A DNA stretch of 64,000 nucleotides from Amphibalanus amphitrite (Eukaryota > Arthropoda > Thecostraca > Balanomorpha > Balanidae). A model generated the notes under the pieces. The model was not told the DNA's origin. It did not search any database and saw only the letters and a list, made by a program, of their open reading frames with translations. How positions within the stretch are numbered: position 1 is the first letter of the stretch; the number at the start of each line of letters is the position of its first letter. The stretch spans positions 1 through 64,000 of the forward strand of contig NW_024882205.1 of assembly GCF_019059575.1 (NCBI RefSeq). Reading direction: 5' to 3'. Below, piece after piece: positions 1 through 62,346 of the stretch. The translations under genes were made by a program, and so were the position numbers.

Positions 1-2659
1 TGGATAACTGTGTTGTACAGTAGTCCTCCAATTTGGGGCATCGTCATTTGGTGCACTAATTGAGCCGTCCACGTGACGCGTTCACCCTTCGGCTCTGAAG
101 TGGCCGACCGGCGCAGCTCCAGCTCGTGTATGGGTCGGCGGCCTCGTATGGGTCGGCCGCCCGCGTGCTCAGCCCCATGACCGCGCCCTGACCTATGGGT
201 CGGCCGGCCGGGTACTCAGCTCTGACCGCACCCGAGCGCCCGATTCCACTCGGGGCCCGGCTTTGGCAGTCAGTCAGCCTGTCCGGCTAAAGCCAAAGTC
301 CCTTCAACTGCGCCCCGGCAACAAACTACATAATCACCACGTGTTTCCTTCTTTCACTTGCGATTTGTGTTAAATTTAGTAACACATTTACCTTGTATTC
401 TGCAAATATATTCACACAAGCCTTATGTGTTGAAGACACAATGATATTGTCTTTTAGGACACAACACGACTGGGTTAACACATTTGTAAATTGACACGTC
501 TGCGACGGGTCAAAAAATGCATGATGCAGGGTACACAAGAAAGCCTAGATAACACGCTCTGCATGTGCGTTTTTAGTCGTTTTTTTTTGTGTCATTTTGT
601 TTTCAGTGAATGACATTCAACTACTAACCTAATCCAGCACAAAGACAAAGTTTCGAGTCTGTTAGTGCGAGCTACTCATTAGCCAGGGACATTCAGAATG
701 GGCTGTGCTAGAGTCAGATGCTCCATTACGAACTGCTTTCTTCGGACAAAAGTGGGAAAACACAGAATCACAGGAAGTGACGAAAGCCGTTTATTTCAGG
801 TAGCAGCACTTTACTCGAGACAAAGTGGCCCGAGAGATGGGCGTCACGTATATGATGCAATGATGCATCACTGCATTACGCGTACTAGCCAATAGACCGA
901 CCGACTGGCCGAACTGACCGCTGGGCGCAGGTCAGACGGCTTGGCTCGGCCGGCCGCTCTCTCGGTGCGCGTGTGATGAGTCCGGTGAACAGACCGGAGG
1001 ACGGCGGTGATGAATCGCCCGCGGACCTGTTGTGGTCACCCACCTATTCAGTGGCGAGGATCGGCGGTCAGCCGGCGCCGCTGGACGCCCAGACAATCAT
1101 TGATTGTAGCGGCGGCGCTTATTGGAGCGGTGGGCGGTCCGCAGTCGTCAGCCGGCCGGCGGCACAGGCGACTCGCCGCCCCCGCCCCCGCCGACACGGG
1201 CTGGAGGCACCGGTGGCCGGCGGAGGAGTCGCCGCGGGGGCTCCCGGTCCGCCCCGGTCTGCCCGCTGGCCACCCGGCGGCGCCGCCCAGTCGCTCACTG
1301 CTCTTACAAAAACGGCCAAAAATCGCACACCAATTGAAAGATCACGAAATATGAGAGAGAAACGGAGAAAATGCGGCTGAATTGTAGGTAGGAAAGGGTG
1401 AGCGCCAGTCAAAAAACTGCTCCAGGAGCAGTGATGACAGAACCGGCGGAAACGGCGACGGGCCGCTCAAAAATAGAGGCGCCGACGCGACCCTGCCCGC
1501 ACCAAGCTCCCCACACTGGCGCCGCCAACCCGGCCGCGGCGGGCCCCAGGTGGGTCGGCGAGAGCATCTCACTTGCAAACCACAATAATTAAATTGCCAA
1601 CAGAGGCGGGCCACAGAACAATGGCACTTGAAAAGCAGGAAGCCGCATCGTGCCGAGAAACCCGAGACGGGAGGCGTGGCAATGGACCGCAATGGGCCGC
1701 GCGCGCGCCCGCCAGCAGCCCTTTATTAATAAGGACGAAATTGGATATGCTCTATAATGAAGCCCCATCGGCTGACAACGAGTGAGCATATCCGGCCAAT
1801 TTTGCGCGGCGGGAGGGTCCGCTCCGGTTATATTACCTACTTATTACCCCCTTTCATAATCGAGTGTTGTATGAGAAGTGAACAAATGTGAGCGGGACGA
1901 GCCAGACTTCAGGGAAACGACCCTCAACCACAAACCACGAGAGCGACCCTGAACGGAAATCTAGGAGCAGACGCGTGGGGCGGGATAACTGTTGTCAGTG
2001 TCTCGGGCTCGGCTATACAGGATAAAATGCATACATGCTCAGCCTCTAGTCTGTCTGTCTAGCGGTTGATCTGGTCCTCCACTAGCTAACACCTTTAGAC
2101 AAAACCCAAAACTGTCGTGACTGAGTACATGTCAGCGTGCTCGATATCGGTTCATACGGGAAGTAAGACAACCAGTCGCCGGTCATGTGACTTGAGAAGC
2201 GGAACACGTCATTTTGGCACGGCAGACTAGCCGTACCAGTCATGCATTATTGCATTATATTACTGGAACCATTCACATTGCGCACACGACATAAAAAGCT
2301 TCATGATATAAACAACATTAACAACGTCATTACTGCTACGTAACGTAGTTGCAAAATCATGCGTTAAAATTACAGGAAGGCGAGCACCGAAGTACCGTAA
2401 AATTACAGGAAGAGCGAAGCAGATGTTCGCATTCACTCTATTACCAAATGACAACGCCAGCAGTCGTCACCCGCGACATTTACGGCCATTCCGTGCGTAA
2501 AGGTATCACAATAAACGCACCATTCAGGGGATGGGAGTGTAAGTTCAGTGTTCGAGTCCAGGACATGTAGCTAAATTGGATAAAAACGAATTTATACATC
2601 CTTGTGGTTAAAATCTGTCCATTTCGTTGTCCCATCTGTCAACCGTTCGTTCGACCGGT
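1..2659. other. Unique non-coding DNA, no gene seen
   Basis: No reading frame here is long or protein-like. At 121-235 the phrase TATGGGTCGGC recurs three times in a short GC-rich imperfect repeat. At 2364-2413 the phrase AAAATTACAGGAAG occurs twice in tandem about 35 bp apart. The stretch 320-640 is AT-rich compared with the GC-rich sequence on both sides. I see nothing else that can be named. Confidence 0.5.
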
Positions 2660-4760
2660 TCCATCCATCTCTCCATCTATCCTATCCCGTCCCAGCCAGT
2701 CCATTCCGTCAGTCTGCCAGTCCATCTTTCCTATCCCGTCTGTCCCAACCAGTCCATTCCGTCAGTTCGTCTGTCCTATCCCGTCCGTCTATCCTATCCC
2801 GTCTGTTCCAGCCAGTCCATTCCGTCAGTTCGTCTGTCCTATCCCGTCCGTCCCAGCCAGTCCGTCTATCCTATCCCGTCTGTTCCAGCCAGTCCATTCC
2901 GTCAGTTCGTCTGTCCTATCCCGTCTGTTCCAGCCAGTCCATTCCGTCAGTTCGTCTGTCCTATCCCGTCCGTCCCCGCCAGTCTATTCCGTCAGTTCGT
3001 CTGTCCTATCCCGTCTGTTCCAGCCAGTCCATTCCGTCAGTTCGTCTGTCCTATCCCGTCCGTCCCAGCCAGTCCATTCCGTCAGTTCGTCTGTCCTATC
3101 CCGTCCGTCCCAGCCAGTCCATTCCGTCAGTTCGTCTGTCCTATCCCGTCTGTTCCAGCCAGTCGATTCCGTCAGTCCGTCTATCCTATCCCGTCTGTCC
3201 CAGCCAGTCCATTCCGTCAGTTCGTCTGTCCTATCCCGTCCGTCCCAATCAGTCCATTCCGTCAGTTCGTCTGTCCTATCCCGTCTGTTCCAGCCGGTCG
3301 ATTCCGTCAGTTCGTCTGTCCTATCCCGTCTGTCCTAGCCAGTCGATTTCGTCAGTCCGTCTATCCTATCCCGTCTGTTCCAGCCAGTCCATTCCGTCAG
3401 TTCGTCTGTCCTATCCCGTCCGTCCCAATCAGTCCATTCCGTCAGTTCGTCTGTCCTATCCCGTCTGTTCCAGCCAGTCGATTCCGTCAGTTCGTCTGTC
3501 CTATCCCGTCTGTCCTAGCCAGTCGATTTCGTCAGTCCGTCTATCCTATCCCGTCTGTTCCAGCCAGTCCATTCCGTCAGTTCGTCTGTCCTATCCCGTC
3601 TGTCCCAGCCAGTCGATTCCGTCAGTCCGTCTATCCTATCCCGTCTGTTCCAGCCAGTCCATTCCGTCAGTTCGTCTGTCCTATCCCGTCTGTCCCAGCC
3701 AGTCGATTCCGTCAGTTCGTCTGTCCTATCCCGTCTGTTCCAGCCAGTCCATTCCGTCAGTTCGTCTGTCCTATCCCGTCCGTCCCAGCCAGTCCATTCC
3801 GTCAGTTCGTCTGTCCTATCCCGTCTGTTCCAGCCAGTCCATTCCGTCAGTTCGTCTGTCCTATCCCGTCCGTCCCAGCCAGTCCATTCCGTCAGTTCGT
3901 CTGTCCTATCCCGTCCGTCCCAGCCAGTCCATTCCGTCAGTTCGTCTGTCCTATCCCGTCTGTTCCAGGCAGTCGATTCCGTCAGTCCGTCTATCCTATC
4001 CCGTCTGTCCCAGCCAGTCCATTCCGTCAGTTCGTCTGTCCTATCCCGTCTGTCCCAATCAGTCCATTCCGTCAGTTCGTCTGTCCTATCCCGTCTGTTC
4101 CAGCCGGTCGATTCCGTCAGTTCGTCTGTCCTATCCCGTCTGTCCTAGCCAGTCGATTTCGTCAGTCCGTCTATCCTATCCCGTCTGTTCCAGCCAGTCC
4201 ATGCCGTCAGTTCGTCTGTCCTATCCCGTCCGTCCCAATCAGTCCATTCCGTCAGTTCGTCTGTCCTATCCCGTCTGTTCCAGCCAGTCGATTCCGTCAG
4301 TTCGTCTGTCCTATCCCGTCTGTCCTAGCCAGTCGATGTCGTCAGTCCGTCTATCCTATCCCGTCTGTTCCAGCCAGTCCATTCCGTCAGTTCGTCTGTC
4401 CTATCCCGTCTGTCCCAGCCAGTCGATTCCGTCAGCCCGTCTATCCTATCCCGTCTGTTCCAGCCAGTCCATTCCGTCAGTTCGTCTGTTCCAGCCAGTC
4501 CATTCCGTCGGTTCGTCTGTCCTATCCCGTCTGTTCCAGCCAGTCCATTCCGTCAGTTCGTCTGTCCTATCCCGTCTGTCCCAGCCAGTCCATTTCGTCA
4601 GTCCATCTTTCCTACCCCGTCTGTCCCAGCCAGTCCATTCCGTCAGTTCGTCTGTCCTATCCCGTCCGTCCCAGCCAGTCCATTCCGTCAGTCTGTCAGT
4701 CCATCTTTCCTATCCCATCTGTCCCAGTCAGTCTATTCCGTCAGCCCGGCTGGGTCCATC
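2660..4760. repeat. 45-bp minisatellite, about 46 copies
   Basis: The unit reads roughly CCAGTCCATTCCGTCAGTTC then GTCTGTCCTATCCCGTCTGTTCCAG and repeats with a 45-bp period. Variants alternate at fixed places (TGTTCC, CGTCCC, TGTCCTAG; CCATTCC versus CGATTTC). The variant CCCAATC recurs at 3244 and 3424, and again at 4054 and 4234. Those spacings are 180 bp (4 units) within each pair and 810 bp (18 units) between pairs, so blocks of units were duplicated. Because 45 is divisible by three and the unit has no stop on the plus strand in several frames, it produces open frames of about 740 and 756 residues built from a 15-residue repeat rich in Ser, Pro, Val and Arg. No initiation context, splice signal or independent domain supports translation. 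It is almost certainly non-coding. Confidence 0.93.
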
Positions 4761-5027
4761 TGTCTGTCAGCAGATTGTCTCGCCGTCCGGAGGCGACGTT
4801 CCATATATCGGAGGTCGCGGATGACGGACTACCTCCGACCGAGAGAGAGCGGACGATCGGCGACACCGACCCGCGGGACGGGACGGTGCCGTATTAATAA
4901 CGGCGCCGTTCATCACACTTTTAATCTACGTGCTAATAAAGTGGGCTGACTTTGACGGCGGCGCAACCGATCGGTCAGCGGTCGGTCGGGAGAGAGGTGA
5001 CTGATGGCCCGCCCACAGACTCACCAT
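4761..5027. other. Spacer between two minisatellites
   Basis: GC-rich sequence with no reading frame or recognisable repeat beyond a decayed edge of the 45-bp array. Confidence 0.4.
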
Positions 5028-5520
5028 GAGAGCCCACACTGGGCGATAACCCACAGACACCTCAGCGAACCCCACATCCACCCACAGATTGGCCAGAGCC
5101 CACACTGGGCGGTATAACCCACCGACACCTCAGCGGCATCCCTTCTCCCGCCCACAGCTAACCAGGGCCCACACTAGACGACATAACCCACAGACACCTC
5201 AGCGAACCCCACCGGCGCCTCCACACCCACCCATGACAAACCAGAGCCCACACTGGGCGGTATAACCCACCGACACCTCAGCGGTATCCCTTCTCCCGCC
5301 CACAGCTAGCCAGGGCCCACACTAGGCGATATAACCCACCGACATCCTACCGGCGTCCCCATACCCACCGACAGTTTAACCAGGGGCCAGAGCCCCTACT
5401 AGGCGGCACAACTCACCGACACCTCAGCGAACCCCACCGGCGCCTCCACACCCACCCATGACAAACCAGAGCCCACACTGGGCGGTATAACCCACCGACA
5501 CCTCACCAAGCCACGGACTC
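5028..5520. repeat. Degenerate 65-80-bp minisatellite, about 7 copies
   Basis: The phrase GCCCACACTGGGCGGTATAA, usually followed by CCCACCGACACCTCAGCG, recurs near 5035, 5099, 5167, 5238, 5308, 5391 and 5471. Two unit types seem to alternate: one has CAGAGCCCACACTGGGCGG, the other has CAGGGCCCACACTAGGCGA with CCCTTCTCCCGCCCACAGC. This suggests an older composite unit of about 140 bp. Copies differ by substitutions and small indels, so the array is older than the 45-bp array beside it. Confidence 0.85.
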
Positions 5521-5980
5521 ACCTGCAGGCTGCACCAATGCCCACTAACCTAACCACCGATCGCCTCACCGACCCACAGACATCCCAGCGGTGATGCAGA
5601 CTCAACGGCGCCCACTCATCGACACGTAACGACCCACCGCAGACCCACCTACGTCCTACAATCCTCATCCCTCAGTCATCGACATCCTGCCAGCGTACCC
5701 ACACACAGACACCCCAGTCAGTCCACAATCACCCCAATCCGCTGACATCTAAAGCACAGCACGACACTCGGCCATCAGCCAGTACTTCTTCATGCATCAG
5801 TGATCAGTCCTAGCAATATAAGCGAGCCATCGGTACCTGTAACGCGGCACATGCCGGTATCAGTGTATAACTCCAGTCCCGGGTGAGCTCTACTGTCTTA
5901 CTGTCTTACTCCATCGTCTCACCATGAACACGGTGAGAGCGGTGAGAGCACACGGAGGCGGGCAGAGCCATGTAAGTGCC
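5521..5980. other. Non-coding, decayed CA-rich sequence
   Basis: The sequence keeps the CCCAC/ACCGACA flavour of the preceding minisatellite and may be its decayed extension. No gene seen. Confidence 0.4.
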
Positions 5981-6205
5981 TCAGCGTGCCACCGCTGTGA
6001 CCAGCCCATATCCATCATACCAGCGCGACTGCAGTAAATTGCGCTCGTGTTGAGACACTCGGCTAGTTGAATGAACTTCAACGAGCCGTCTGATGTCTTC
6101 CTGGCTTAGCGTAATCACCTCACCAGGGGCTTTGTAGATGTCGGAGAATTCTAAAACTCGCTGCGTGCCGCGACGAAGCTGAAAGTTGATGGTGATGATG
6201 TCCAT
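5981..6205 (-). CDS. Possible coding exon, 74 residues, unknown
   Basis: This short minus-strand frame has a mixed, soluble-protein-like composition (motifs such as FSDIYKAPGEVITL and QEDIRRLVEVHS). That differs from the Arg/Pro/Ala-rich phantom frames typical of this GC-rich window. The start lies in a strong animal initiation context, with A at -3 and G at +4 (ACGATGG). It has no signal peptide or membrane segment. A possible splice donor (CTGGTATGAT) lies inside the frame near residue 63, so a real exon might end there. I recognise no family. It lies about 0.4 kb beyond the 3' end of the LINE and is not obviously part of it. It could be a host first exon, a remnant of another mobile element, or chance. 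Confidence 0.25.
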   Translation of the reverse strand: MDIITINFQLRRGTQRVLEFSDIYKAPGEVITLSQEDIRRLVEVHSTSRVSQHERNLLQSRWYDGYGLVTAVAR

Positions 6206-6631
6206 CGTCAGTGCAAACTCGGCGCGGGGAGGGGGTGACCTTGGGGCGGGCGAGCACTCCCGGAGTTTGGACTTCCTGCCGTCTGGGGCGTCCTAATCTG
6301 GCGGTCACGTCGCCTATAACGCTGTGGCTTCGTAACCCGGTCGTTCGAAGGGGATCGCCAATCGGCGGACAGGCGCGTCGGTGGGACGGACGCCGCACGT
6401 CAGTCGTCAAACGTATGTAAGTACACACGGCGAAGGCCAAGGTCAGGTGGGCACATTGGGGACAGAAAGGGCTGTTGAGACCGTCTCCATTCGGTTAGGA
6501 CTGTAGGAAATCACTGGCGACAGGCGAGCATGGAGGAAGCCAGGGCTGGGCGTCAGGGCTGGATGGATCCTAAAGATGGTCAGTGGAACCCCATCAAGAC
6601 TGCCAGGAAGCCATTCACACACCAACACACC
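6206..6631. other. Non-coding spacer beyond the LINE 3' end
   Basis: Mixed-composition sequence with no convincing gene or repeat. Confidence 0.4.
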
Positions 6632-7019
6632 CCATTCCATTCCATTCCATTCCAACTGTTTATTGGTAATACAAATTAAACGCATAATATAGTGAAATAA
6701 GAGGAGGCACAAAAGCCAAAGGGCTTAAATCTCGGTGCCAACTCTTGTGATGCAGTGCACCGGAAATATGTATAATACAAGCGCAGACACACATACATGC
6801 ATACTTACATACATACACATACATGCATGCATACACATACATACAAACATACTTACATACATACGTACACGCCTGAACACATTCATCATCTCTCATACTT
6901 CGAACATACGCTCAGTCAGAAGTTCGCCTGACCGCCGCCCCGTCGCCGGCCACCGCCCGCAGCCACCGCCCCCGCACGCCCCGCCAGGAGGCCGCGCCCG
7001 GCCAGGTCCCTGGATGAAG
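6632..7019 (-). other. LINE 3' UTR with CATA repeat and (GGAAT)n end
   Basis: Read on the minus strand it holds a GC-rich stretch (6925-7010), a (TATG)n-type microsatellite (6785-6870), a pyrimidine-rich phrase CCCTTTGGCTTTTGTGCCTC (6707-6726), AATAAA at 6659-6664, and the terminal GGAAT repeat at 6632-6653. Confidence 0.8.
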
Positions 7020-8228
7020 TTAGAAAACGCATGAGAATCTGTGAGTATCTTGTATAAATTTTTGGAAGTGGCGTGCCACCGCCCGACCGCCGACACCGTC
7101 GAGGCCTGAGCCGTGCAGGAGGATTTCCAGTTGGATGGTTTTAGGTTGAAGTGTAAAGTTGGATTGTAGGCTTCGGGATATATTTTGGTTCATTTCGTCT
7201 CTTTGTCGTGTGTATAATGGGCATGAGCAGATAAAGTGTGCTGTACTTTCTTGAGGGAAACCGCACAGACAAGCTGGAGAGTCGGTTTTTTGAATTTTGT
7301 ATAAATGAGAATTTAACTGTGTCATGTTAGTCCTTAGTCTGGTGTGAAGAATGTTTAGATTTTTGCTTCCGTGTGAATAATATGTGGGTGGTTTGGATGC
7401 CGAATAATGTTTTTTGATCCACTTGTTGAAGTCTGAGAGGGGCAATTGCTTTGTGGTCTCTGGCAGTGTATTCCATTGTTTTCCTGTGAGAGTAAAGAAG
7501 GAGCGTTGATGTGTTGTTGTCCGGGTTCGAGCTAAAGTATGGTGTCTAGCGTTTCGAAGTGTCATGTTTATGTCATATTGTCGTGTACGTGGGATGATAG
7601 TTGTGATATAATTTGGAGTACTGTGGTTATCAGGTCTGCTTAATTTGTGATAGAGTGTCAATCGATGTGTTTGTCTTCTGGTTGTCAATTTGTCCCATCC
7701 TAATTCGGTGCGTAGTTTGTCAGATGGTGTTCTAAACAGGGTCCCAGTCGTCAGTCTCGCTATTCTGTTTTGTAACGTCTCCAGTCTAGAAATGTCTCTT
7801 AAAGTGATATGTCCGTCGTACACAGTGTCACAATAGTCAAAAATAGGTAAAATGTACGTTTTGTAAATTTGTTCTAGGATATGTCGAGGAAGATATTTTG
7901 CAATTGAATATAATGGGCTGGTATTTTTGTTTATTTTGCTTATAATTTCGTTTACATGTTCGTGGAATCGGAGATCGTGAGAAAACGTCAGTCCAAGATG
8001 TTTATGAGTCTCATCTTTCGGTATAGGAGTGTCAGCAAAATGAAGTGTCGGCTGTTGGTGTGACTTTATAAGTGAGAATGTTTGTTGACTAGTTTTTGCT
8101 GAATTGAATGAAATGGCCCAGTCTTGTCCGTATTTGTAAATTTCGTCTAAGTCTCTTTGTAAGGGTCGTTTGGGTGTTTTGTAGTGTGTCTGGTGAGTGG
8201 GAGGCATATAAAGAGGTGTCGTCTGCAA
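7020..8228 (-). pseudogene. LINE pol, C-terminal part: RT thumb and Cys/His motif
   Basis: After about 24 out-of-frame residues this frame continues the reverse transcriptase. HLGLTFSHDL at 77-86 matches the conserved Leu-Gly box after the catalytic motif, and LQNRIARLTTG at 152-162 is typical of the thumb region. Near the end, Cys320, Cys322, His331, Cys334 and Cys336 (pattern CxC-x8-H-x2-C-x-C) form the Cys/His cluster often found at the C terminus of such elements and thought to bind nucleic acid. The frame ends with TAA at 7020-7022. The last residues fall where composition turns GC-rich, so the true stop of the active ancestor may differ. Confidence 0.85.
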
Positions 8229-8610
8229 ATAATAAAATGTCGTTGTTTGTGCGTTTTGATAGATCGTTTAGATAAATTAGTGCTAGAAGAGGTCCAAGTA
8301 CCGATCCCTGGGGGCATCCTGCGTTAATTTTGCGTTGTTGAGAAAAGGAATTTCGAATTTGTACTCGTTGTAATCTGTTACTAAGGTAAGATTTTAGCCA
8401 GTGGAGAAGTGTTCCTGAAATTCCGAATTCATTTTCGCATTTATATAGTAATCCTTTATGCCAGATCTTGTCAAAATATTTCGAGATGTCTAGGTATATT
8501 GCCGTGAAGTCTTGTCCGGTATCTAAAGCCTTATATAGGTTGTGTGTTAAGTAATGAAGTTGAAGTTCGGTGCCATGTTTTTTGCGGTAGCCACTTTGTT
8601 TATCTGTCAA
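8089..8610 (-). pseudogene. LINE pol, central part: reverse transcriptase catalytic core
   Basis: This segment carries the catalytic motifs of a non-LTR reverse transcriptase. Motif A is AIYLDISKYFD with Asp41. Motif B is AGCPQGSVLGPLL at 97-109. Motif C is FADD at 128-131, the usual YADD/FADD box. It is in the same frame as the N-terminal segment, but the stretch between about 8770 and 8660 is read in another frame. Two nearby indels therefore compensate, and the second sits in or near a run of A residues on the minus strand. A third frameshift near 8163-8165 ends this segment, and its last roughly 25 residues are out of frame. The catalytic residues are intact, so inactivation comes from the indels and not from active-site change. 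Confidence 0.88.
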
Positions 8611-8691
8611 AAGGTCGTGTTCTGTAATGTGTCCGTAAATTTGCCTGTATACAATTTTTTTCGAAAATTTTAGAAATGGCCGATAATATGC

Positions 8692-10752
8692 TTATGGGCC
8701 GGTAGCAAGTTGGATCAGAAGGGGACCCTTTATTTTTGAAAATTGGTTTGATGTTCGCCTTTTTAGCTCGTCTGGATAAATGCCTATTGATAATGATTTG
8801 TTAAATAGTTGAGACAGTGGTTTTGCAATTAGGAGTGCTGTTAGTTTTAAGAACTTTACGGGAAGGCCGTCTGGTCCGGTAGATTTGTTGGTGTCTAGAG
8901 AGTTAAGTATTTGAAGTACTTCATGTTCGTCAGTCGTAATGTTGTCGAGGGCTGGTATCGGAGTCATGTTTGCGGTAGTTGTCGGTGGAAGTCGTGTGTC
9001 TGGTATGTCAAGTGTGGATTGTAGAGCAAAATGTTCGTTTAGTAATGTCGCCTTGTCTTGTTCGTCGTTTAGTATTGTGCCGTCACGTCCGAGGAGTGGT
9101 GGAATTGTATTATTTTGTTTTCTCCCTGTAATTGAGGCAAGTGTTTTATGATATTTGTGTAAGTTTTGTTTATCGTTCAATAACTTTTGCACCTCTCTTT
9201 GCATGTACTCGTTTTTTAACCGTCTGTTTATTGCTGTGACTAAGTTACGTTGACACCTCCATCTCGTCCAGTTACTTTCAGTTTGCGTATCCTTTGCTAG
9301 TTTAAACAGTCTATCCCTTTTACGTATGGTTCTTTTCAGCTCTGATGTTATCCAGTATTTGTCATTTTTCTTGCGTTTCAGTTTAATTTTTGGAATTGCT
9401 GCTGCCGCCGCGTTGTGTAAAGAAGTAATAAATTCTGATGTTGCGGTATTTATGTCCTTGTTCATGATGCTTTCCCAGTCAGTGTCAGTCAGTGTCCTAG
9501 TTAAAAGTGGTATGTCCATGTTTTGGTAGTCCCAAATAGTTACAACAGAATCGTCGTTGTCTAATGTCGGTCGTGCGAAGTCAAGTGTTACAAATGTTGG
9601 AAAATGATCTAGGTTTGCAAATGATGATAGTATTCCGCTTTGTTGAATTATTTCACTGTTGTTAGTAAATATAAGGTCTCTAAGGTTGTTTACGTTTGTC
9701 GTGATTCGGGTAGCCTGTTGAATAATTTGATAAAGGTTTAACGTCTGCGCAGTGTCTTTGAGTTTTTGGTCAAATAGAGTCGTTCCACTGTGCTGTGCGA
9801 TAGGGTGGTCAAGATAAATGTTTCCCGCGTTAAAGTCTCCTAATGAAATTGTTGCCGTCGGTGTATGTGTTTGTGCCTTACATATAGTTTCAGAAAAATT
9901 GTCTAAGAAGGTTTGTAGTCGGTCGCTGGGAAGGTTAGGTGGGAGATAAATACTACTGACTATGAGTGTGAATTTGTGTGTTTTTATTTTGGCCCAGACC
10001 CATTCCTCATTCCCAGACTCGATATTTGACAATTTTTGAACCGGAAAAGATTTGTGTACATATAGTGCTACGCCTCCTCCATGTCGCGTTCTGTGTTTTG
10101 TAATGGGCGGGTGAAAGTCATCTAGTGTATGCTGGCTGTCAGCCACCGAATTGTCAAGTTTTGTCTCTGTTAGTGCTAGAATCTGTATGTCGTTTGTTTG
10201 TATGAATTGTTCAAGTTCAGCGATTTTGTTTTCTGAGGTAATGCTATTGATGTTGATATGCGCAATCGTGATCTGTTTCGTCTCTGTAGGGCCTGGATTG
10301 AGTTCAATGCCGTGCATGGTGAGCAACATTTGTATGTTCATGTAGGAGCCGAGTAGTGACCACTGTGAGTTAGTCAAAATAGGGCAAGGTAGGTCATGTC
10401 TGGTTGTGTGCACATTTGGTAAGGATAGGACTGGTCTTGGTCTGGTTGGGTACAAGTCGGTAGGTAATGCAGCAGCAGCAGTCCAAGACGGCGGCAGCGG
10501 CCGGTCGGCGGCCCGTAGCACACCGGCGGCCGAGAGAAGTCGCGGGCCCGGCCGGACGCGCCCCCCCAGCAGAACGACGGCGGCAGCAGCCGACAGGGTC
10601 GGACGAGCAACAGGCAGCGCCGGCGAGCGGACTGGGGACAATCGCGTGGGCTTGTTACGTACGGAACAGAAGTTACAGAAAATCAAGCAGAACACAAAGA
10701 TTAAGCGTAACATAACAGCAGGCACACCTGAGGTGCAGTGTGCGGGAAGCAC
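8692..10752 (-). pseudogene. LINE pol, N-terminal part: 2A-like motif and APE endonuclease
   Basis: This frame of 686 residues holds the start of the polyprotein. Residues 14-31 are hydrophobic (LRLIFVFCLIFCNF) and could act as a signal or membrane segment. Residues 40-120 are Pro/Arg/Ala-rich. GIELNPGP at 148-155 resembles a 2A ribosome-skipping motif. The endonuclease spans about 160-392. Its motifs are HININS, LTETK with Glu196, YLPP at 269-272, LGDFN with Asp306 and Asn308, RD at 358-359, and LDHFP with Asp382 and His383. All expected metal-binding and catalytic positions look present. Residues 400-660 form the linker into the reverse transcriptase and include a conserved KSTGPDGLP-like stretch. 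The frame is lost by a frameshift near 8760-8770, so the last roughly 20 residues are out of frame. Clade assignment is inferred from motif style. Confidence 0.88.
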
Positions 10753-11035
10753 AAGTACTAAAAATAATCAAGTAAGGCAAATGAAGCGCGTAATGGTAAG
10801 TAAATACAGTGGTGCTACCTTAAAATATAATGTCTCGTCAACAAAAGAAACATACGTGCAATGGCAACTTAGTGACAAAAATAGCGCGTCAACAGAAGAA
10901 ACGTACATAATATGGCAAATAAAGTAACAATATAATAGCGTCGACAGAGAGTCATACATTATGTGGCAAATAAAGTGGCTATACAAATATAATAGCGGTC
11001 AACAGACGAAACACATAATAAAGCAAACTCATCCC
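10753..11035. repeat. Degenerate 51-58-bp tandem repeat next to the LINE 5' end
   Basis: Four clear units contain CGTCAACAGAAGAAACGTAC-like sequence followed by an ATATGGCAAATAAAG-like phrase. The CGTC cores start near 10836, 10887, 10939 and 10996. A fifth decayed unit may lie at 10758-10806. The array abuts the first methionine of the LINE frame, so it could be 5' UTR monomers (promoter-bearing tandem repeats are known in some LINEs) or a pre-existing minisatellite. A, T and GTCAAC dominate, unlike the flanks. Confidence 0.7.
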
Positions 11036-53222: not shown

Positions 53223-53232
53223 CTATATGCCC
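53223..53232. repeat. Target site duplication, left copy
   Basis: CTATATGCCC, identical to 62337-62346 and directly adjoining the inverted ends of the foldback element. Confidence 0.88.
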
Positions 53233-53368
53233 ATGTCCGTGAAGTTAGCGTCAGCAACAGCAACGAATACAGCGTCGGATTCAGAATCGCTTCAAAAACT
53301 GCCATCAGGTCAATTGGGGGACGGGGAACACGAATATGACATTTATTTTGCCCTAGCTCCCTTCCTTC
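53233..53368 (+). repeat. Outer terminal inverted repeat, left
   Basis: Unique, non-satellite end of the foldback element, running into the satellite at TTCATCCCTTAATCG. It pairs with 62203-62336. Confidence 0.9.
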
Positions 53369-54376
53369 ATCCCTTAATCGTCCCTTAAAGGACGGGGCGC
53401 GTCAAAAGTGCCCCAAGGCTTCGTCTGATCGCCAAAATAATCATCGCAATCGATTCCTCGGGTCAATATCTAACCTCAGTCGAAGGTTCCAGACCTGTGG
53501 CTCCTATCCCTCATCCCTTAATCGTCCCTTAAAGGACGGGGCGCGTCAAAAGTGCCCCAAGGCTTCGTCTGATCGCCAAAATAATGGTCGCAATCGCTTC
53601 CTCGGGTCAATATCTAACCTCAGTCGAAGGTTCCAGACCTGTGGCTCCTATCCCTTATCCCTTAATCGTCCCTTAAAGGACGGGGCGCGTCAAAAGTGCC
53701 CCAAGGCTTCGTCTGATCGCCAAAATAATGGTCGCATTCGATTCCTCGGGTCAATATCTCACCTCAGTCGAAGGTTCCAGACCTGTGGCTCCTATCCCTC
53801 ATCCCTTAATCGTCCCTTAAAGGACGGGGCGCGTCAAAAGTGCCCCAAGGCTTCGTCTGATCGCCAAAATAATGGTCGCAATCGATTCCTCGGGTCAATA
53901 TCTAACCTCAGTCGAAGGTTCCAGACCTGTGGCTCCTATCCCTCATCCCTTAATCGTCCCTTAAAGGACGGGTGCCCCAAGGCTTCGTCTGATCGCCAAA
54001 ATAATGGTCGCAATCGATTCCTCGGGTCAATATCTAACCTCAGTGGAAGGTTCCAGACCTGTGGCTCCTATCCCTCATCCCTTAATCGTCCCTTAAAGGA
54101 CGGGGCGCGTCAAAAGTGCCCCAAGGCTTCGTCTGATCGCCAAAATAATGGTCGCAATCGATTCCACGGGTCAATATCTAACCTCAGTCGAAGGTTCCAG
54201 ACCTGTGGCTCCTATCCCTCATCCCTTAATCGTCCCTTAAAGGACGGGGCGCGTCAAAAGTGCCCCAAGGCTTCGTCTGATCGCCAAAATAATGGTCGCA
54301 TTATTTTGGCATTATAGGAGCCACAGGTCTGGAAGGTTCCAGACCTGTGGCTCCTATCCCTCATCCCTTAATCGTC
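53369..54376 (+). repeat. 144-bp satellite array, left arm, 7 units
   Basis: The unit runs CCCTTAATCGTCCCTTAAAG, GACGGGGCGCGTCAAAAGTG, CCCCAAGGCTTCGTCTGATC, then on through ATCGATTCCTCGGGTCAATA to GGCTCCTATCCCTCAT. ATCGTCCC anchors lie at 53377, 53521, 53665, 53809, 53953, 54085 and 54229. All spacings are 144 except one of 132, caused by a 12-bp deletion of the GCGCGTCAAAAG region near 53972. The last unit is cut short at the centre. Confidence 0.95.
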
Positions 54377-54434
54377 CCTTAATCGACCATTATTCCCTTA
54401 ACGCCCTTAGTCCCTTATTAGTCCCTTAACGCGA
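54283..54434. repeat. Rearranged centre of the foldback with two hairpins
   Basis: First is a 12-bp stem GCCAAAATAATG/CATTATTTTGGC around GTCG (54283-54310). Then comes a 21-bp perfect stem beginning ATAGGAGCCACAGGTCTGGA with a 2-base GG loop (54314-54357). Then an imperfect CCCTTA stutter (54358-54428), and the orientation switches. All parts derive from the 144-bp unit, so the centre looks like scrambled satellite. Confidence 0.88.
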
Positions 54435-55664
54435 TCGACCCGAGGAATCGATTGCGACCATTATTTTGGCGATCAGACGAAGCCTTGGGGCACTTTTGAC
54501 GCGCCCCGTCCTTTAAGGGACGATTAAGGGATGAGGGATAGGAGCCACAGGTCTCGAACCTTCGACTGAGGTTAGATATTGACCCGAGGAATCGATTGCG
54601 ACCATTATTTTGGCGATCAGACGAAGCCTTGGGGCACTTTTGACGCGCCCCTTCCTTTAAGGGACGATTAAGGGATGAGTGATAGGAGCCACAGGTCTGA
54701 AACCTTCGACTGAGGTTAGATATTGACCCGAGGAATCGATTGCGACCATTATTTTGGCGATCAGACGAAGCCTTGGGGCACTTTTGACGCGCCCCGTCCT
54801 TTAAGGGACGATTAAGGGATGAGGGATAGGAGCCACAGGTCTGGAACCTTCGACTGAGGTTAGATATTGACCCGAGGAATCGATTGCGACGATTATTTTG
54901 GCGATCAGACGAAGCCTTGGGGCACTTTTGACGCGCCCCGTCCTTTAAGGGACGATTAAGGGATAAGGGATAGGAGCCACAGGTCTGGAACCTTCGACTG
55001 AGGTTAGATATTGACCCGAGGTATCGATTGCGACCATTATTTTGGCGATCAGACGAAGCCTTGGGGCACTTTTGACGCGCCCCGTCCTTTAAGGGACGAT
55101 TGAGGGATGAGGGATAGGAGCCACAGGTCTGGAACCTTCGACTGAGGTTAGATATTGACCCGAGGAATCGATTGCGACCATTATTTTGGCGATCAGACGA
55201 AGCCTTGGGGCACTTTTGACGCGCCCCGTCCTTTAAGGGACGATTAAGGGATGAGGGATAGGAGCCACAGGTCTGGAACCTTCGACTGAGGTTAGATATT
55301 GACCCGAGGAATCGATTGCGACCATTATTTTGGTGATCAGACGAAGCCTTGGGGCACTTTTGACGCGCCCCGTCCTTTAAGGGACGATTAAGGGATGAGG
55401 GATAGGAGCCACAGGTCTGGAACCTTCGACTGAGGTTAGATATTGACCCGAGGAATCGATTGCGACCATTATTTTGGCGATCAGACGAAGCCTTGGGGCA
55501 CTTTTGACGCGCCCCGTCCTTTAAGGGACGATTAAGGGATAAGGGATAGGAGCCACAGGTCTGGAACCTTCCACTGAGGTTAGATATTGACCCGAGGAAT
55601 CGATTGCGACCATTATTTTGGCGATCAGACGAAGCCTTGGGGCACTTTTGACGCGCCCCGTCCT

Positions 55665-55668
55665 TTAA
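55665..55668. repeat. TTAA target duplication, left copy
   Basis: The TTAA of a satellite CCTTTAAGGG site. The second copy is at 56853-56856. Confidence 0.9.
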
Positions 55669-56852
55669 CCCGCGCCCTGGTGGGGGGGCTATTTTTTGCC
55701 CCCCCCTCCAGACTTTTCGATATATCTCCAGAACCACTGCGCCGATCGTCACCAAACTTTCAGTACCCTCCCGGACATCAATTTTACACATTGTGACCAA
55801 AAATTTTTCCAAAGGCTATGATAGGTTGGCCGGAAATGACGTCAGAGTGACGTCATGTTCTGCCGTTTTCGACTCAAAAAAGGGTTTCGCGGGAAGAGCT
55901 GCCAGGCCTATAGCTTTGCAAATACAGAAAAATGATACAAACATAAAAGCTGTAGAATGAACAGGGCTACAAAACTGCTATCTCGGATTTTTGAAATTTT
56001 TGGATTTTGACCCCCAAAAATCAAAAAAATAGATTTTTTGAATATAATAGCCAAAAAATCCAAAAAGTTTTTCGAATTTCGAAAAAAACCGGAATATATG
56101 TGATAGTCCTTACCGCCTTCTATCTACATACCAAATTTGAGATCGATACCTCTTTTTTGGCCAAGTTATAGCGAAAAAACTGTTCATAATTGATGACGTC
56201 AAATTTTCAAACTCAATTTTCAGCAATTCTAGACCTCGTAGCGCAAAACAAAGACCACCATTAGACTCCCCGTGACGAGCTGCATCGAATCAATACCCAT
56301 TTTATGCAAAAATATCAACTTTAAAATTTGACCTTTTTTGACCTGACCTTGACCTGACCTCCACCAGAAAGTGACCTAAACCGTACCTGATGGTCTTATA
56401 ACCAACACCATTGAGTTGGAAATGAGAAACTGGCCATAAAACATGCATCGCATAACCTTGTAAAGTTGGGTTCATGTGGTGACCCTTGGTGACCTTTGGT
56501 GACCTGACCTGTGACCTGACCTGGTATGACCAGTGACCTCTAACAGCAACATATCTACTAGGCAACTGACGCCCTATCGCTGATTCCCGACAAAATGCGT
56601 TTTTCTCGGTGTTATAGCGCATTCCCTAGAAGACCCGTGAACGGTGAAACATTTCATCTTTGACCTGACCTGTGACGTCATCGGTGACCCCGAGGTCAAT
56701 AAAATTTGGTTTCCCTCGACAAATTTGACAGGCCTTTCGAACGCCGTTTGAATTTTTCGGATCCGTCCAGTAGTTTCGGAGATACGAGGGGGGGCAAAAA
56801 ATAGCCCCCCCCCACCAGGTCGCGTTATAAACAGACCCCACCAGGGCGCGGG
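55669..56852. mobile_element. piggyBac-like non-autonomous transposon, 1,184 bp
   Basis: The ends are perfect 17-bp inverted repeats, CCCGCGCCCTGGTGGGG and its complement, flanked by TTAA at 55665-55668 and 56853-56856. CCC...GGG termini with TTAA duplication are typical of the piggyBac superfamily. The disturbed satellite register (1,188 bp) equals exactly the element plus one TTAA. Subterminally both ends carry a G-run, CTATTTTTTG and C-run hairpin. The right end has an extra 26-bp stretch that duplicates the CCACCAGG-CGCG motif (56812-56824 and 56838-56850). The interior has an A/T-rich half (55970-56210) and a half rich in TGACC/TGACCT motifs (56330-56690). It has no transposase frame. 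Frames of about 70-106 residues inside it resemble no protein I know. Confidence 0.9.
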
Positions 56853-59800
56853 TTAAGGGACGATTAAGGGATGAGGGATAGGAGCCACAGGTCTGGAACC
56901 TTCGACTGAGGTTAGATATTGACCCGAGGAATCGATTGCGACCATTATTTTGGCGATCAGACGAAGCCTTGGGGCACTTTTGACGCGCCCCGTCCTTTAA
57001 GGGACGATTAAGGGATGAGGGATAGGAGCCACAGGTCTGGAACCTTCGACTGAGGTTAGATATTGACCCGAGGAATCGATTGCGACCATTATTTTGGCGA
57101 TCAGACGAAGCCTTGGGGCACTTTTGACGCGCCCCGTCCTTTAAGGGACGATTAAGGGATGAGGGATAGGAGCCACAGGTCTGGAACCTTCGACTGAGGT
57201 TAGATATTGACCCGAGGAATCGATTGCGACCATTATCTTGGCGATCAGACGAAGCCTTGGGGCACTTTTGACGCGCCCCGTCCTTTAAGGGACGATTAAG
57301 GGATGAGGGATAGGAGCCACAGGTCTGGAACCTTCGACTGAGGTTAGATATTGACCCGAGGAATCGATTGCGACCATTATTTTGGCGATCAGACGAAGCC
57401 TTGGGGCACTTTTGACGCGCCCCGTCCTTTAAGGGACGATTAAGGGATAAGGGATAGGAGCCACAGGTCTGGAACCTTCGACTGAGGTTAGATATTGACC
57501 CGAGGAATCGATTGCGACCATTATTTTGGCGATCAGACGAAACCTTGGGGCACTTTTGACGCGCCCCGTCCTTTAAGGGACGATTAAGGGATGAGGGATA
57601 GGAGCCACAGGTCTAGAACCTTCGACTGAGGTTAGATATTGACCCGAGGAATCGATTGCGACCATTATTTTGGCGATCAGACGAAGCCTTGGGGCACTTT
57701 TGACGCGCCCCGTCCTTTAAGGGACGATTAAGGGATGAGGGATAGGAGCCACAGGTCTGGAACCTTCGACTGAGGTTAGATATTGACCCGAGGAATCGAT
57801 TGCGATGATTATTTTGGCGATCAGACGAAGCCTTGGGGCACTTTTGACGCGCCCCGTCCTTTAAGGGACGATTAAGGGATAAGGGATAGGAGCCACAGGT
57901 CTGGAACCTTCGACTGAGGTTAGATATTGACCCGAGGAATCGATTGCGACCATTATTTTGGCGATCAGACGAAGCCTAGGGGCACTTTTGACGCGCCCCG
58001 TCCTTTAAAGGACGATTAAGGGATGAGGGATAGGAGCCACAGGTCTGGAACCTTCGACTGAGGTTAGATATTGACCCGAGGAATCGATTGCGACCATTAT
58101 TTTGGCGATCAGACGAAGCCTTGGGGCACTTTTGACGCGCCCCGTCCTTTAAGGGACGATTAAGGGATGAGGGATAGGAGCCACAGGTCTAGAACCTTCG
58201 ACTGAGGTTAGATATTGACCCGAGGAATCGATTGCGACCATTATTTTGGCGATCAGACGAAGCCTTTGGGCACTTTTGACGCGCCCCGTCCTTTAAGGGA
58301 CGATTAAGGGATGAGGGATAGGAGCCACAGGTCTGGAACCTTCGACTGAGGTTAGATATTGACCCGAGGAATCGATTGCGACCATTATTTTGGCGATCAG
58401 ACGAAGCCTTGGGGCACTTTTGACGCGCCCCGTCCTTTAAGGGACGATTAAGGGATAAGGGATAGGAGCCACAGGTCTGGAACCTTCGACTGAGGTTAGA
58501 TATTGACCCGAGGAATCGATTGCGACCATTATTTTGGCGATCAGACGAAGCCTTGGGGCACTTTTGACGCGCCCCGTCCTTTAAGGGACGATTAAGGGAT
58601 GAGGGATAGGAGCCACAGGTCTGGAACCTTCGACTGAGGTTAGATATTGACCCGAGGAATCGATTGCGACCATTATTTTGGCGATCAGACGAAGCCTTGG
58701 GGCACTTTTGACGCGCCCCGTCCTTTAAGGGACGATTAAGGGATAAGGGATAGGAGCCACAGGTCTAGAACCTTCGACTGAGGTTAGATATTGACCCGAG
58801 GAATCGATTGCGACCATTATTTTGGCGATCAGACGAAGCCTTGGGGCACTTTTGACGCGCCCCGTCCTTTAAGGGACGATTAAGGGATAAGGGATAGGAG
58901 CCACAGGTCTGGAACCTTCGACTGAGGTTAGATATTGACCCGAGGAATCGATTGCGACCATTATTTTGGCGATCAGACGAAGCCTTGGGGCACTTTTGAC
59001 GCGCCCCGTCCTTTAAGGGACGATTAAGGGATAAGGGATATGAGCCACAGGTCTGGAACCTTCGACTGAGGTTAGATATTGACCCGAGGAATCGATTGCG
59101 ACCATTATTTTGGCGATCAGACGAAGCCTTGGGGCACTTTTGACGCGCCCCGTCCTTTAAGGGACGATTAAGGGATAAGGGATAGGAGCCACAGGTCTGG
59201 AACCTTCGACTGAGGTTAGATATTGACCCGAGGAATCGATTGCGACCATTATTTTGGCGATCAGACGAAGCCTTGGGGCACTTTTGACGCGCCCCGTCCT
59301 TTAAGGGACGATTAAGGGATGAGGGATAGGAGCCACAGGTCTGGAACCTTCGACTGAGGTTAGATATTGACCCGAGGAATCGATTGCGACCATTATTTTG
59401 GCGATCAGACGAAGCCTTGGGGCACTTTTGACGCGCCCCGTCCTTTAAGGGACGATTAAGGGATGAGGGATAGGAGCCACAGGTCTGGAACCTTCGACTG
59501 AGGTTAGATATTGACCCGAGGAATCGATTGCGACCATTATCTTGGCGATCAGACGAAGCCTTGGGGCACTTTTGACGCGCCCCGTCCTTTAAGGGACGAT
59601 TAAGGGATAAGGGATAGGAGCCACAGGTCTAGAACCTTCGACTGAGGTTAGATATTGACCCGAGGAATCGATTGCGACCATTATTTTGGCGATCAGACGA
59701 AGCCTTGGGGCACTTTTGACGCGCCCCGTCCTTTAAGGGACGATTAAGGGATAAGGGATAGGAGCCACAGGTCTGGAACCTTCGACTGAGGTTAGATATT

Positions 59801-62202
59801 GACCCGAGGAATCGATTGCGACCATTATTTTGGCGATCAGACGAAGCCTTTGGGCACTTTTGACGCGCCCCGTCCTTTAAGGGACGATTAAGGGATGAGG
59901 GATAGGAGCCACAGGTCTAGAACCTTCGACTGAGGTTAGATATTGACCCGAGGAATCGATTGCGACCATTATTTTGGCGATCAGACGAAGCCTTGGGGCA
60001 CTTTTGACGCGCCCCGTCCTTTAAGGGACGATTAAGGGATGAGGGATAGGAGCCACAGGTCTGGAACCTTCGACTGAGGTTAGATATTGACCCGAGGAAT
60101 CGATTGCGATGATTATTTTGGCGATCAGACGAAGCCTTGGGGCACTTTTGACGCGCCCCGTCCTTTAAGGGACGATTAAGGGATAAGGGATAGGAGCCAC
60201 AGGTCTGGAACCTTCGACTGAGGTTAGATATTGACCCGAGGAATCGATTGCGACCATTATTTTGGCGATCAGACGAAGCCTAGGGGCACTTTTGACGCGC
60301 CCCGTCCTTTAAAGGACGATTAAGGGATGAGGGATAGGAGCCACAGGTCTGGAACCTTCGACTGAGGTTAGATATTGACCCGAGGAATCGATTGCGACCA
60401 TTATTTTGGCGATCAGACGAAGCCTTGGGGCACTTTTGACGCGCCCCGTCCTTTAAGGGACGATTAAGGGATGAGGGATAGGAGCCACAGGTCTAGAACC
60501 TTCGACTGAGGTTAGATATTGACCCGAGGAATCGATTGCGACCATTATTTTGGCGATCAGACGAAGCCTTTGGGCACTTTTGACGCGCCCCGTCCTTTAA
60601 GGGACGATTAAGGGATGAGGGATAGGAGCCACAGGTCTGGAACCTTCGACTGAGGTTAGATATTGACCCGAGGAATCGATTGCGACCATTATTTTGGCGA
60701 TCAGACGAAGCCTTGGGGCACTTTTGACGCGCCCCGTCCTTTAAGGGACGATTAAGGGATAAGGGATAGGAGCCACAGGTCTGGAACCTTCGACTGAGGT
60801 TAGATATTGACCCGAGGAATCGATTGCGACCATTATTTTGGCGATCAGACGAAGCCTTGGGGCACTTTTGACGCGCCCCGTCCTTTAAGGGACGATTAAG
60901 GGATGAGGGATAGGAGCCACAGGTCTGGAACCTTCGACTGAGGTTAGATATTGACCCGAGGAATCGATTGCGACCATTATTTTGGCGATCAGACGAAGCC
61001 TTGGGGCACTTTTGACGCGCCCCGTCCTTTAAGGGACGATTAAGGGATAAGGGATAGGAGCCACAGGTCTAGAACCTTCGACTGAGGTTAGATATTGACC
61101 CGAGGAATCGATTGCGACCATTATTTTGGCGATCAGACGAAGCCTTGGGGCACTTTTGACGCGCCCCGTCCTTTAAGGGACGATTAAGGGATGAGGGATA
61201 GGAGCCACAGGTCTGGAACCTTCGACTGAGGTTAGATATTGACCCGAGGAATCGATTGCGACCATTATTTTGGCGATCAGACGAAGCCTTGGGGCACTTT
61301 TGACGCGCCCCGTCCTTTAAGGGACGATTAAGGGATGAGGGATAGGAGCCACAGGTCTGGAACCTTCGACTGAGGTTAGATATTGACCCGAGGAATCGAT
61401 TGCGACCATTATTTTGGCGATCAGACGAAGCCTTGGGGCACTTTTGACGCGCCCCGTCCTTTAAGGGACGATTAAGGGATAAGGGATAGGAGCCACAGGT
61501 CTGGAACCTTCGACTGAGGTTAGATATTGACCCGAGGAATCGATTGCGACCATTATTTTGGCGATCAGACGAAGCCTTGGGGCACTTTTGACGCGCCCCG
61601 TCCTTTAAGGGACGATTAAGGGATGAGGGATAGGAGCCACAGGTCTGGAACCTTCGACTGAGGTTAGATATTGACCCGAGGAATCGATTGCGACCATTAT
61701 TTTGGCGATCAGACGAAGCCTTGGGGCACTTTTGACGCGCCCCGTCCTTTAAGGGACGATTAAGGGATGAGGGATAGGAGCCACAGGTCTGGAACCTTCG
61801 ACTGAGGTTAGATATTGACCCGAGGAATCGATTGCGACCATTATTTTGGCGATCAGACGAAGCCTTGGGGCACTTTTGACGCGCCCCGTCCTTTAAGGGA
61901 CGATTAAGGGATAAGGGATAGGAGCCACAGGTCTGGAACCTTCGACTGAGGTTAGATATTGACCCGAGGAATCGATTGCGACCATTATTTTGGCGATCAG
62001 ACGAAGCCTTGGGGCACTTTTGACGCGCCCCGTCCTTTAAGGGACGATTAAGGGATAAGGGATATGAGCCACAGGTCTGGAACCTTCGACTGAGGTTAGA
62101 TATTGACCCGAGGAATCGATTGCGACCATTATTTTGGCGATCAGACGAAGCCTTGGGGCACTTTTGACGCGCCCCGTCCTTTAAGGGACGATTAAGGGAT
62201 GA

Positions 62203-62336
62203 AGGAAGGAAGCTAGGGCAAAATAAATGTCATATTCGTGTTCCCCGTCCCCCAATTGACCTGATGGCAGTTTTTGAAGCGATTCTGAATCCGACGCTGT
62301 ATTCGTTGCTGTTGCTGACGCTAACTTCACGGACAT
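62203..62336 (-). repeat. Outer terminal inverted repeat, right
   Basis: Complement of 53233-53368 with one visible mismatch, ending CTTCACGGACAT. Confidence 0.9.
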
Positions 62337-62346
62337 CTATATGCCC
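62337..62346. repeat. Target site duplication, right copy
   Basis: CTATATGCCC, identical to 53223-53232. Confidence 0.88.

Follow-up and report, generated by a model that had tools for sequence, protein, structure and literature searches.

The stretch analysed here, called the window, is the first 64 kilobases (kb) of contig C708 (NW_024882205.1) in the genome assembly of Amphibalanus amphitrite. At 53233-62336 it holds an element of 9,104 base pairs (bp) with exact 10-bp direct repeats outside both ends. Between its inverted ends lie a 144-bp satellite in two opposed arrays, a rearranged centre and one insert. We consider it very probable that this element is one copy of a family of foldback DNA transposons with satellite arms and with no gene in the copies read whole, which has moved and expanded as an initial annotation of the window had proposed. 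A satellite, usually thought of as stationary, appears in this family to travel within the genome and to be extended at its landing site. The features of the copy are, in window coordinates:

53223-53232, unstranded: left target-site duplication CTATATGCCC, with an exact copy at 62337-62346
53233-53356, plus strand: left end domain of 124 bp, with an inverted copy at the right end and no significant similarity to the monomer
53356-54382, minus strand: left arm, about seven monomers of 144 bp, one with a 12-bp deletion
54283-54357, unstranded: back-folded pieces in the left arm close to its inner end, one with 12-bp arms and a 4-bp loop and one with 21-bp arms and a 2-bp loop
54383-54436, unstranded: rearranged centre of 54 bp, with CCCTTA-type scraps
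54437-55668, plus strand: right arm, inner part, as far as the nested insert
55665-55668, unstranded: TTAA on the left of the nested insert
55669-56852, unstranded: nested insert of 1,184 bp with 17-bp inverted ends CCCGCGCCCTGGTGGGG, outside the foldback element proper
56853-56856, unstranded: TTAA on the right of the nested insert
56853-62212, plus strand: right arm, outer part, which together with the inner part holds 45 full 144-bp monomers
57548-58888, plus strand: exact 1,341-bp repeat, copy 1, at an offset of 16 monomers (2,304 bp) from copy 2
59852-61192, plus strand: exact 1,341-bp repeat, copy 2
62213-62336, minus strand: right end domain of 124 bp
62337-62346, unstranded: right target-site duplication

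The outline given by the initial annotation holds for the boundaries, the ends and the arrays. CTATATGCCC occurs at the two flanking positions and nowhere else on either strand of the window, and an exact 10-bp match at fixed positions has a chance probability of about 1e-6. Compared inward over 168 bases, the inverted ends differ at base 127 (C/T) only; the end domain proper accounts for 124 bp and the remainder is satellite, which runs on the minus strand in the left arm and on the plus strand in the right arm. The reported length of 9.1 kb is also correct, but not all of it is foldback: 1.18 kb is an insert (described below), and without this insert and one TTAA the element measures 7,916 bp. 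The end domains were considered as a source of the monomer, by comparison with the 37-bp shared stretch in Tetris, and this idea was dropped, as local alignment of end domain and monomer was no better than with shuffled sequences (of 500 shuffles, 153 on one strand and 148 on the other scored equally well or better).

The host assembly (807.6 Mb, 2,644 contigs) was searched with the 136-base end, which includes 12 bp of the satellite junction, and the best 40 of 939 first-look candidates were scored. This yielded 41 end matches that are 93-100% identical to the query, and the places were inspected in longer stretches (27) or in about 500 bp (14). The junction between end and satellite lies at the identical point in all 41 scored ends, which is partly a selection effect of taking only the best candidates with a query that contains the junction. 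Both ends were read in 12 copies, with lengths (inserts counted) of 455, 2,480, 6,171, 6,466, 7,526, 7,630, 9,104, 9,358, 10,427, 11,711, 12,303 and 13,843 bp. They share one plan of end, minus-strand satellite, plus-strand satellite and end, with a short centre in some. Long inverted arms of tandem repeats are present in 11 of the 12, the exception being the 455-bp copy (L013), whose arms are each shorter than a monomer. The largest arm counts are 52 full monomers in a two-ended copy (C844) and 64 in C1276, where the right end was not reached.

Mobility is read from target duplications at unrelated sites, and these are exact in ten of the 12 two-ended copies (eight of 9 bp and two of 10 bp). 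Wrong pairings of flanks from 11 of the 12 copies shared at most 4 bp in 110 combinations, and the 20-bp flanks differ among all 12. The 12 copies read bear out the expectation that the host would hold further paired-end copies with duplications and that similarity would stop at the proposed ends. These copies also bear on a quite different account, in which the locus is a stationary opposed satellite array flanked by chance repeats, or consists of two arrays wrongly joined in the assembly. Opposed satellite arrays are indeed prone to misassembly, and one insertion is found on both contig C1528 and contig C773, with inner 155-bp arrays that differ. However, the same unit and ends recur at 12 sites with different flanks, ten of them with a duplication of their own, which refutes this account for the family and leaves it highly improbable.

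The near-identity of the two ends had been taken as a sign of recent insertion or of ongoing conversion between the arms, and its use as a date is not upheld. In DNA transposons, unlike in elements with long terminal repeats, insertion does not generate one end as a copy of the other. Moreover, a 100% match to the query is seen in 26 of the 41 scored ends, and in 25 of these, the window's own included, it covers all 136 bases. End identity was accordingly rejected as an insertion date.

Growth at the landing site was assessed from variants in the 13 loci with at least 10 monomers, two of which (L022 and L028) are not two-ended. Loci with fewer monomers were excluded, monomers that failed the anchor match were uncounted, and 719 of 723 monomers were kept after dropping four with more than eight differences. 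Among 263 variants, 23 are private to one locus yet present in at least three of its monomers; with shuffled locus labels, 200 trials gave on average 0.22 such variants and at most 3. It follows that variants were amplified within loci after the loci had separated. Ten of these 23 are carried by both of the opposed arms. Nine of the ten are transversions and none affects a CpG, which makes recurrent mutation unlikely; the simplest explanation is exchange between the arms. Taken together, the variants point to arrays that grow within copies and to arms that exchange sequence. For the few copies read, these locus-private amplified variants support the proposed order of spread by transposition followed by expansion in place.

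The array of the window itself is strongly asymmetric, with about seven monomers on the left versus 45 on the right. The right-arm monomers have a mean identity of 99.2% to their consensus and are exactly 144 bp each once the insert is skipped, after which the interrupted monomer equals the consensus. At an offset of 16 monomers, 13 of 29 pairs are identical, a count not attained at any offset in 5,000 shuffles. The consensus sequences of the left and right arms do not differ. Since the arms agree in this way and distances between loci barely exceed those within loci, the family is young or well homogenised. The same two observations would fit a history in which the arrays had grown in a few source copies ahead of transposition and then travelled at full size, changing little in place. 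We regard this as unlikely, because sizes differ in all 12 two-ended copies and because of the 23 locus-private variants found in at least three monomers.

Several points weigh against transposition followed by growth in place. Firstly, the duplication of L011 (9 bp) has one mismatch, and L010 has no duplication and a left flank that is itself satellite. Secondly, the scored ends are the best 40 of 939, found with a query that includes 12 bp of the junction, and ends without satellite could escape it; some loci are present twice in the assembly, as L021 and L025 represent one insertion on two contigs with the first 1,297 bp identical. Thirdly, 13 of the 23 private variants are confined to one arm, L022 was read almost only in one arm, and distances between loci are only slightly above those within loci. 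A variant private among the 13 loci may also occur in unread copies, and some of the amplification may predate the last jump. Lastly, no gene, and with it no transposase, was seen in any copy read whole.

The 1,184-bp block in the middle of the copy had been taken for the core of the foldback. It is instead a TTAA-flanked insertion into one right-arm monomer, separate from the foldback, and the true centre of the foldback is the stretch of about 54 bp at 54383-54436. The block does lie between two blocks of satellite, as a loop of the element holding the remnant of an internal gene would. But these neighbouring blocks have the same orientation, and the same phase after 55669-56852 is skipped, and a loop is refuted by this; the block furthermore has TTAA at both edges and inverted ends of its own, which begin with CCC. 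Among the other 11 two-ended copies, BLAST found a relative inside the element only in C1105, in a different monomer. That the block belongs to the foldback is hardly credible in view of this evidence.

The monomer contains two TTAA sites. TTAA duplication and ends beginning with CCC are features of piggyBac elements (PMC10813416) and are shared by the nested block, although CCCGC differs from the four end motifs listed in the cited part of PMC10813416. Unlike in a full piggyBac element, the reading frames are too short for a transposase (longest stop-free stretch 107 amino acids), and by its sequence the block would be at most a non-autonomous piggyBac-type derivative. The C1105 relative lies in the right arm, is likewise flanked by TTAA and matches the block at 67% over 689 bp and 78% over 80 bp. 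The left arm of L024 carries a TTAA-flanked insert that shares its first 14 bases with the nested block, with a different other end and with a body that gave no match; a further relative (74% over 878 bp) lies beyond the bounds of that element. Satellite arms hold other inserts too: at 11278-14040 of C1276 (L022 and L030) one has TTAA edges and ends AGGGACC, unlike those of the nested block, and at 2067-2758 of C844 (L016 and L017) there is one of yet another kind.

Singleton variants are unevenly distributed around the nested insert. Eight of nine fall in the nine monomers on its inner side; six of these nine monomers (54513-55665) carry singletons versus one of the 36 outside (56997-62037; Fisher p 7e-5). 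The nine monomers adjoining the right end have none. This is suggestive only of the insert acting as a barrier to homogenisation, as an effect of the array edge would look alike. At the other side of the inner arm the centre is rearranged, with the two back-folded pieces beside it (54283-54357), which we read as scars of template switching. The 301 bp around the centre fold far better than shuffled sequences, as any such inverted arrangement must. Among 14 centres compared, a centre of about 32 bp is common to six loci in either orientation (L009, L012, L022, L024, L028 and C1105). The window and seven other loci have different, rearranged centres, and the shared centre was not seen in the window.

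We propose that a transposase made elsewhere would act on the end domains and insert the unit as a whole. Wherever a unit has landed, its arms would then lengthen or shorten through unequal exchange or copy-slippage. They may also pair as a hairpin and copy sequence into each other, which would leave homogenised arms and back-folded scars near the centre. The two TTAA sites of the monomer could serve as targets for TTAA-targeting elements, one of which would have landed in this copy. The putative transposase is probably of the Mutator/Rehavkus type, judging by duplications of 9-10 bp. Mutator-like elements (MULEs) have duplications of 8-11 bp (PMC6446971), a range that includes all ten exact duplications of the family. 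Rehavkus elements have 9-bp duplications, a minisatellite and a transposase with a PHD finger (PMC6446971); the family resembles them in its eight exact 9-bp duplications and in repeats that adjoin the ends, whereas no gene was seen in the copies here.

Other transposases can stand behind the same structure with unequal arms, as comparison of Tm1 with Galileo illustrates (PMC3169594, PMC3573991, PMC3688188). Galileo of Drosophila has foldback-like, repeat-bearing arms with unequal numbers of tandem repeats, for which copying between arms was proposed, and it has a P-type transposase (PMC3573991, PMC3688188). A P-type or other transposase, with a foldback structure that arose convergently, could in that light also have moved the present family. 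We think this improbable, since Galileo is flanked by 7-bp duplications (PMC3573991, PMC3688188) and not by the 9-10 bp seen here, which lie within the Mutator-like range (PMC6446971), a comparison of length alone. The tandem repeats of Galileo hold secondary transposase sites (PMC3573991, PMC3688188), which is a possible reason for arms of this kind. Tm1 of root-knot nematodes, a Mutator/foldback element, has mostly 8-10-bp duplications, unequal repeat-bearing arms and nested inserts as found here; its repeats, in contrast, are 13-15 bp long, and a relative with a putative transposase was described (PMC3169594).

By description, Tetris of Drosophila virilis appears to be the nearest described case found. 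It is a non-autonomous foldback element with tandem repeats of about 220 bp in its arms and 8-10-bp duplications, for which the cited part of the source reports that a transposase was not found (PMC4079207). Allelic copies have three and four repeats, and one sequenced copy has three or four in its left arm (PMC4079207). Long arrays between two flanking domains were seen by fluorescence in situ hybridization on fibres (fibre-FISH), and arrays in contigs reach 66 copies (PMC4079207). As in the present family, long homogeneous arrays were described as arising inside the element (PMC4079207). Tetris differs in its flanking domains of up to 866 bp and its inner domain (PMC4079207; compared by description, not by sequence), whereas the family described here has, besides satellite, only the 124-bp ends and sometimes the centre of about 32 bp. 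A second case is Rehavkus-1_TC of Tribolium castaneum, a 9.5-kb DNA transposon with tandem copies of the 164-bp TCsat23 in its inverted termini (PMC10218199). Its termini resemble the arms here in this respect, but have mostly five and eight monomers, and the cited part of the source gives no stretch longer than nine (PMC10218199). Among the papers listed by full-text searches no report was recognised as this element, as judged mostly from the listings and without sequence comparison, and the accessible part of PMC13359780, on arthropod MULEs, holds nothing specific to it.

Elements of this kind are known; what is added here is the family, its reduction to ends and satellite, the range of sizes and the evidence copy by copy. 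It is debated how satellites spread and whether the transposon or the free array comes first, with Tetris and TCsat23 as earlier cases; a review names the expansion of transposon-internal arrays as one route to satellites (PMC12628747). In this one genome, many copies of a single satellite transposon have clear bounds and insertion points that can be read; their arms range from below one monomer to 52 where both ends are known (64 where the far end was not reached). Because each insertion is a natural starting point of an array, growth in place, homogenisation and exchange between arms become measurable copy by copy. A further-reaching possibility, which we put forward tentatively and at somewhat less than even chances, is a self-contained mobile satellite. 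The transposon body would then be the main existence of the satellite family, with short seeds that insert and with hairpin-driven re-expansion and two-arm homogenisation at each site. The 455-bp copy (L013) would be an example of such a seed. If true, the spread of the satellite and its concerted evolution would be by-products of foldback transposition.

As 144 is a multiple of three, one frame of the satellite is open over long stretches. This frame was rejected as a gene: a common variant, G>A at position 42 (7 of 45 right-arm monomers), creates a stop. A protein search with the frame gave 0 of 7,999 scored candidates above the threshold, and its sole Pfam match, BH3, with 0 separate stretches, was taken as a repeat artefact. 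A satellite 35-mer had no exact match in viral contigs and prokaryote genome contigs, a weak null given that these are non-eukaryote collections. The end 29-mer and the end of the nested insert each had 0 exact matches in viral contigs, again a weak null because that collection may omit the host.

Some loci are not two-ended or are otherwise odd, namely C1276 (L022 and L030), L023, L028, L021, L025 and C111 (L020). In C111 (G000:C111:796400-797400, positions 290-537) two ends abut outer-to-outer with 0 bases between them, and one is only 93% identical. L021 (G000:C1528:18998-28997, 733-7070) and L025 (G000:C773:141859-151858, 733-9076) contain a second foldback-like unit, made of 155-bp repeats. 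Its opposed arms (1,937 bp) are 96% alike and it is preceded by a family end and 266 bp of the 144-bp satellite; the 155-bp arrays differ between the two loci.

At positions 1-53200 of the window, 198 other inverted-repeat pairs were found, and the 25 pairs listed are all made of two GA/TC tracts. Rfam gave no match on the whole window, and Pfam gave no family on 20 of its 86 open stretches (four further stretches were scanned separately). A minisatellite of 45-bp units, with a higher-order period of 90 bp, extends over about 2 kb (2718-4702). A non-long terminal repeat retrotransposon lies on the minus strand at 7020-10767, spans more than one frame, encodes endonuclease and reverse transcriptase domains and has 113 relatives among 8,000 scored. 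Upstream of its endonuclease stands HGIELNPGP, which we take to resemble a 2A peptide.

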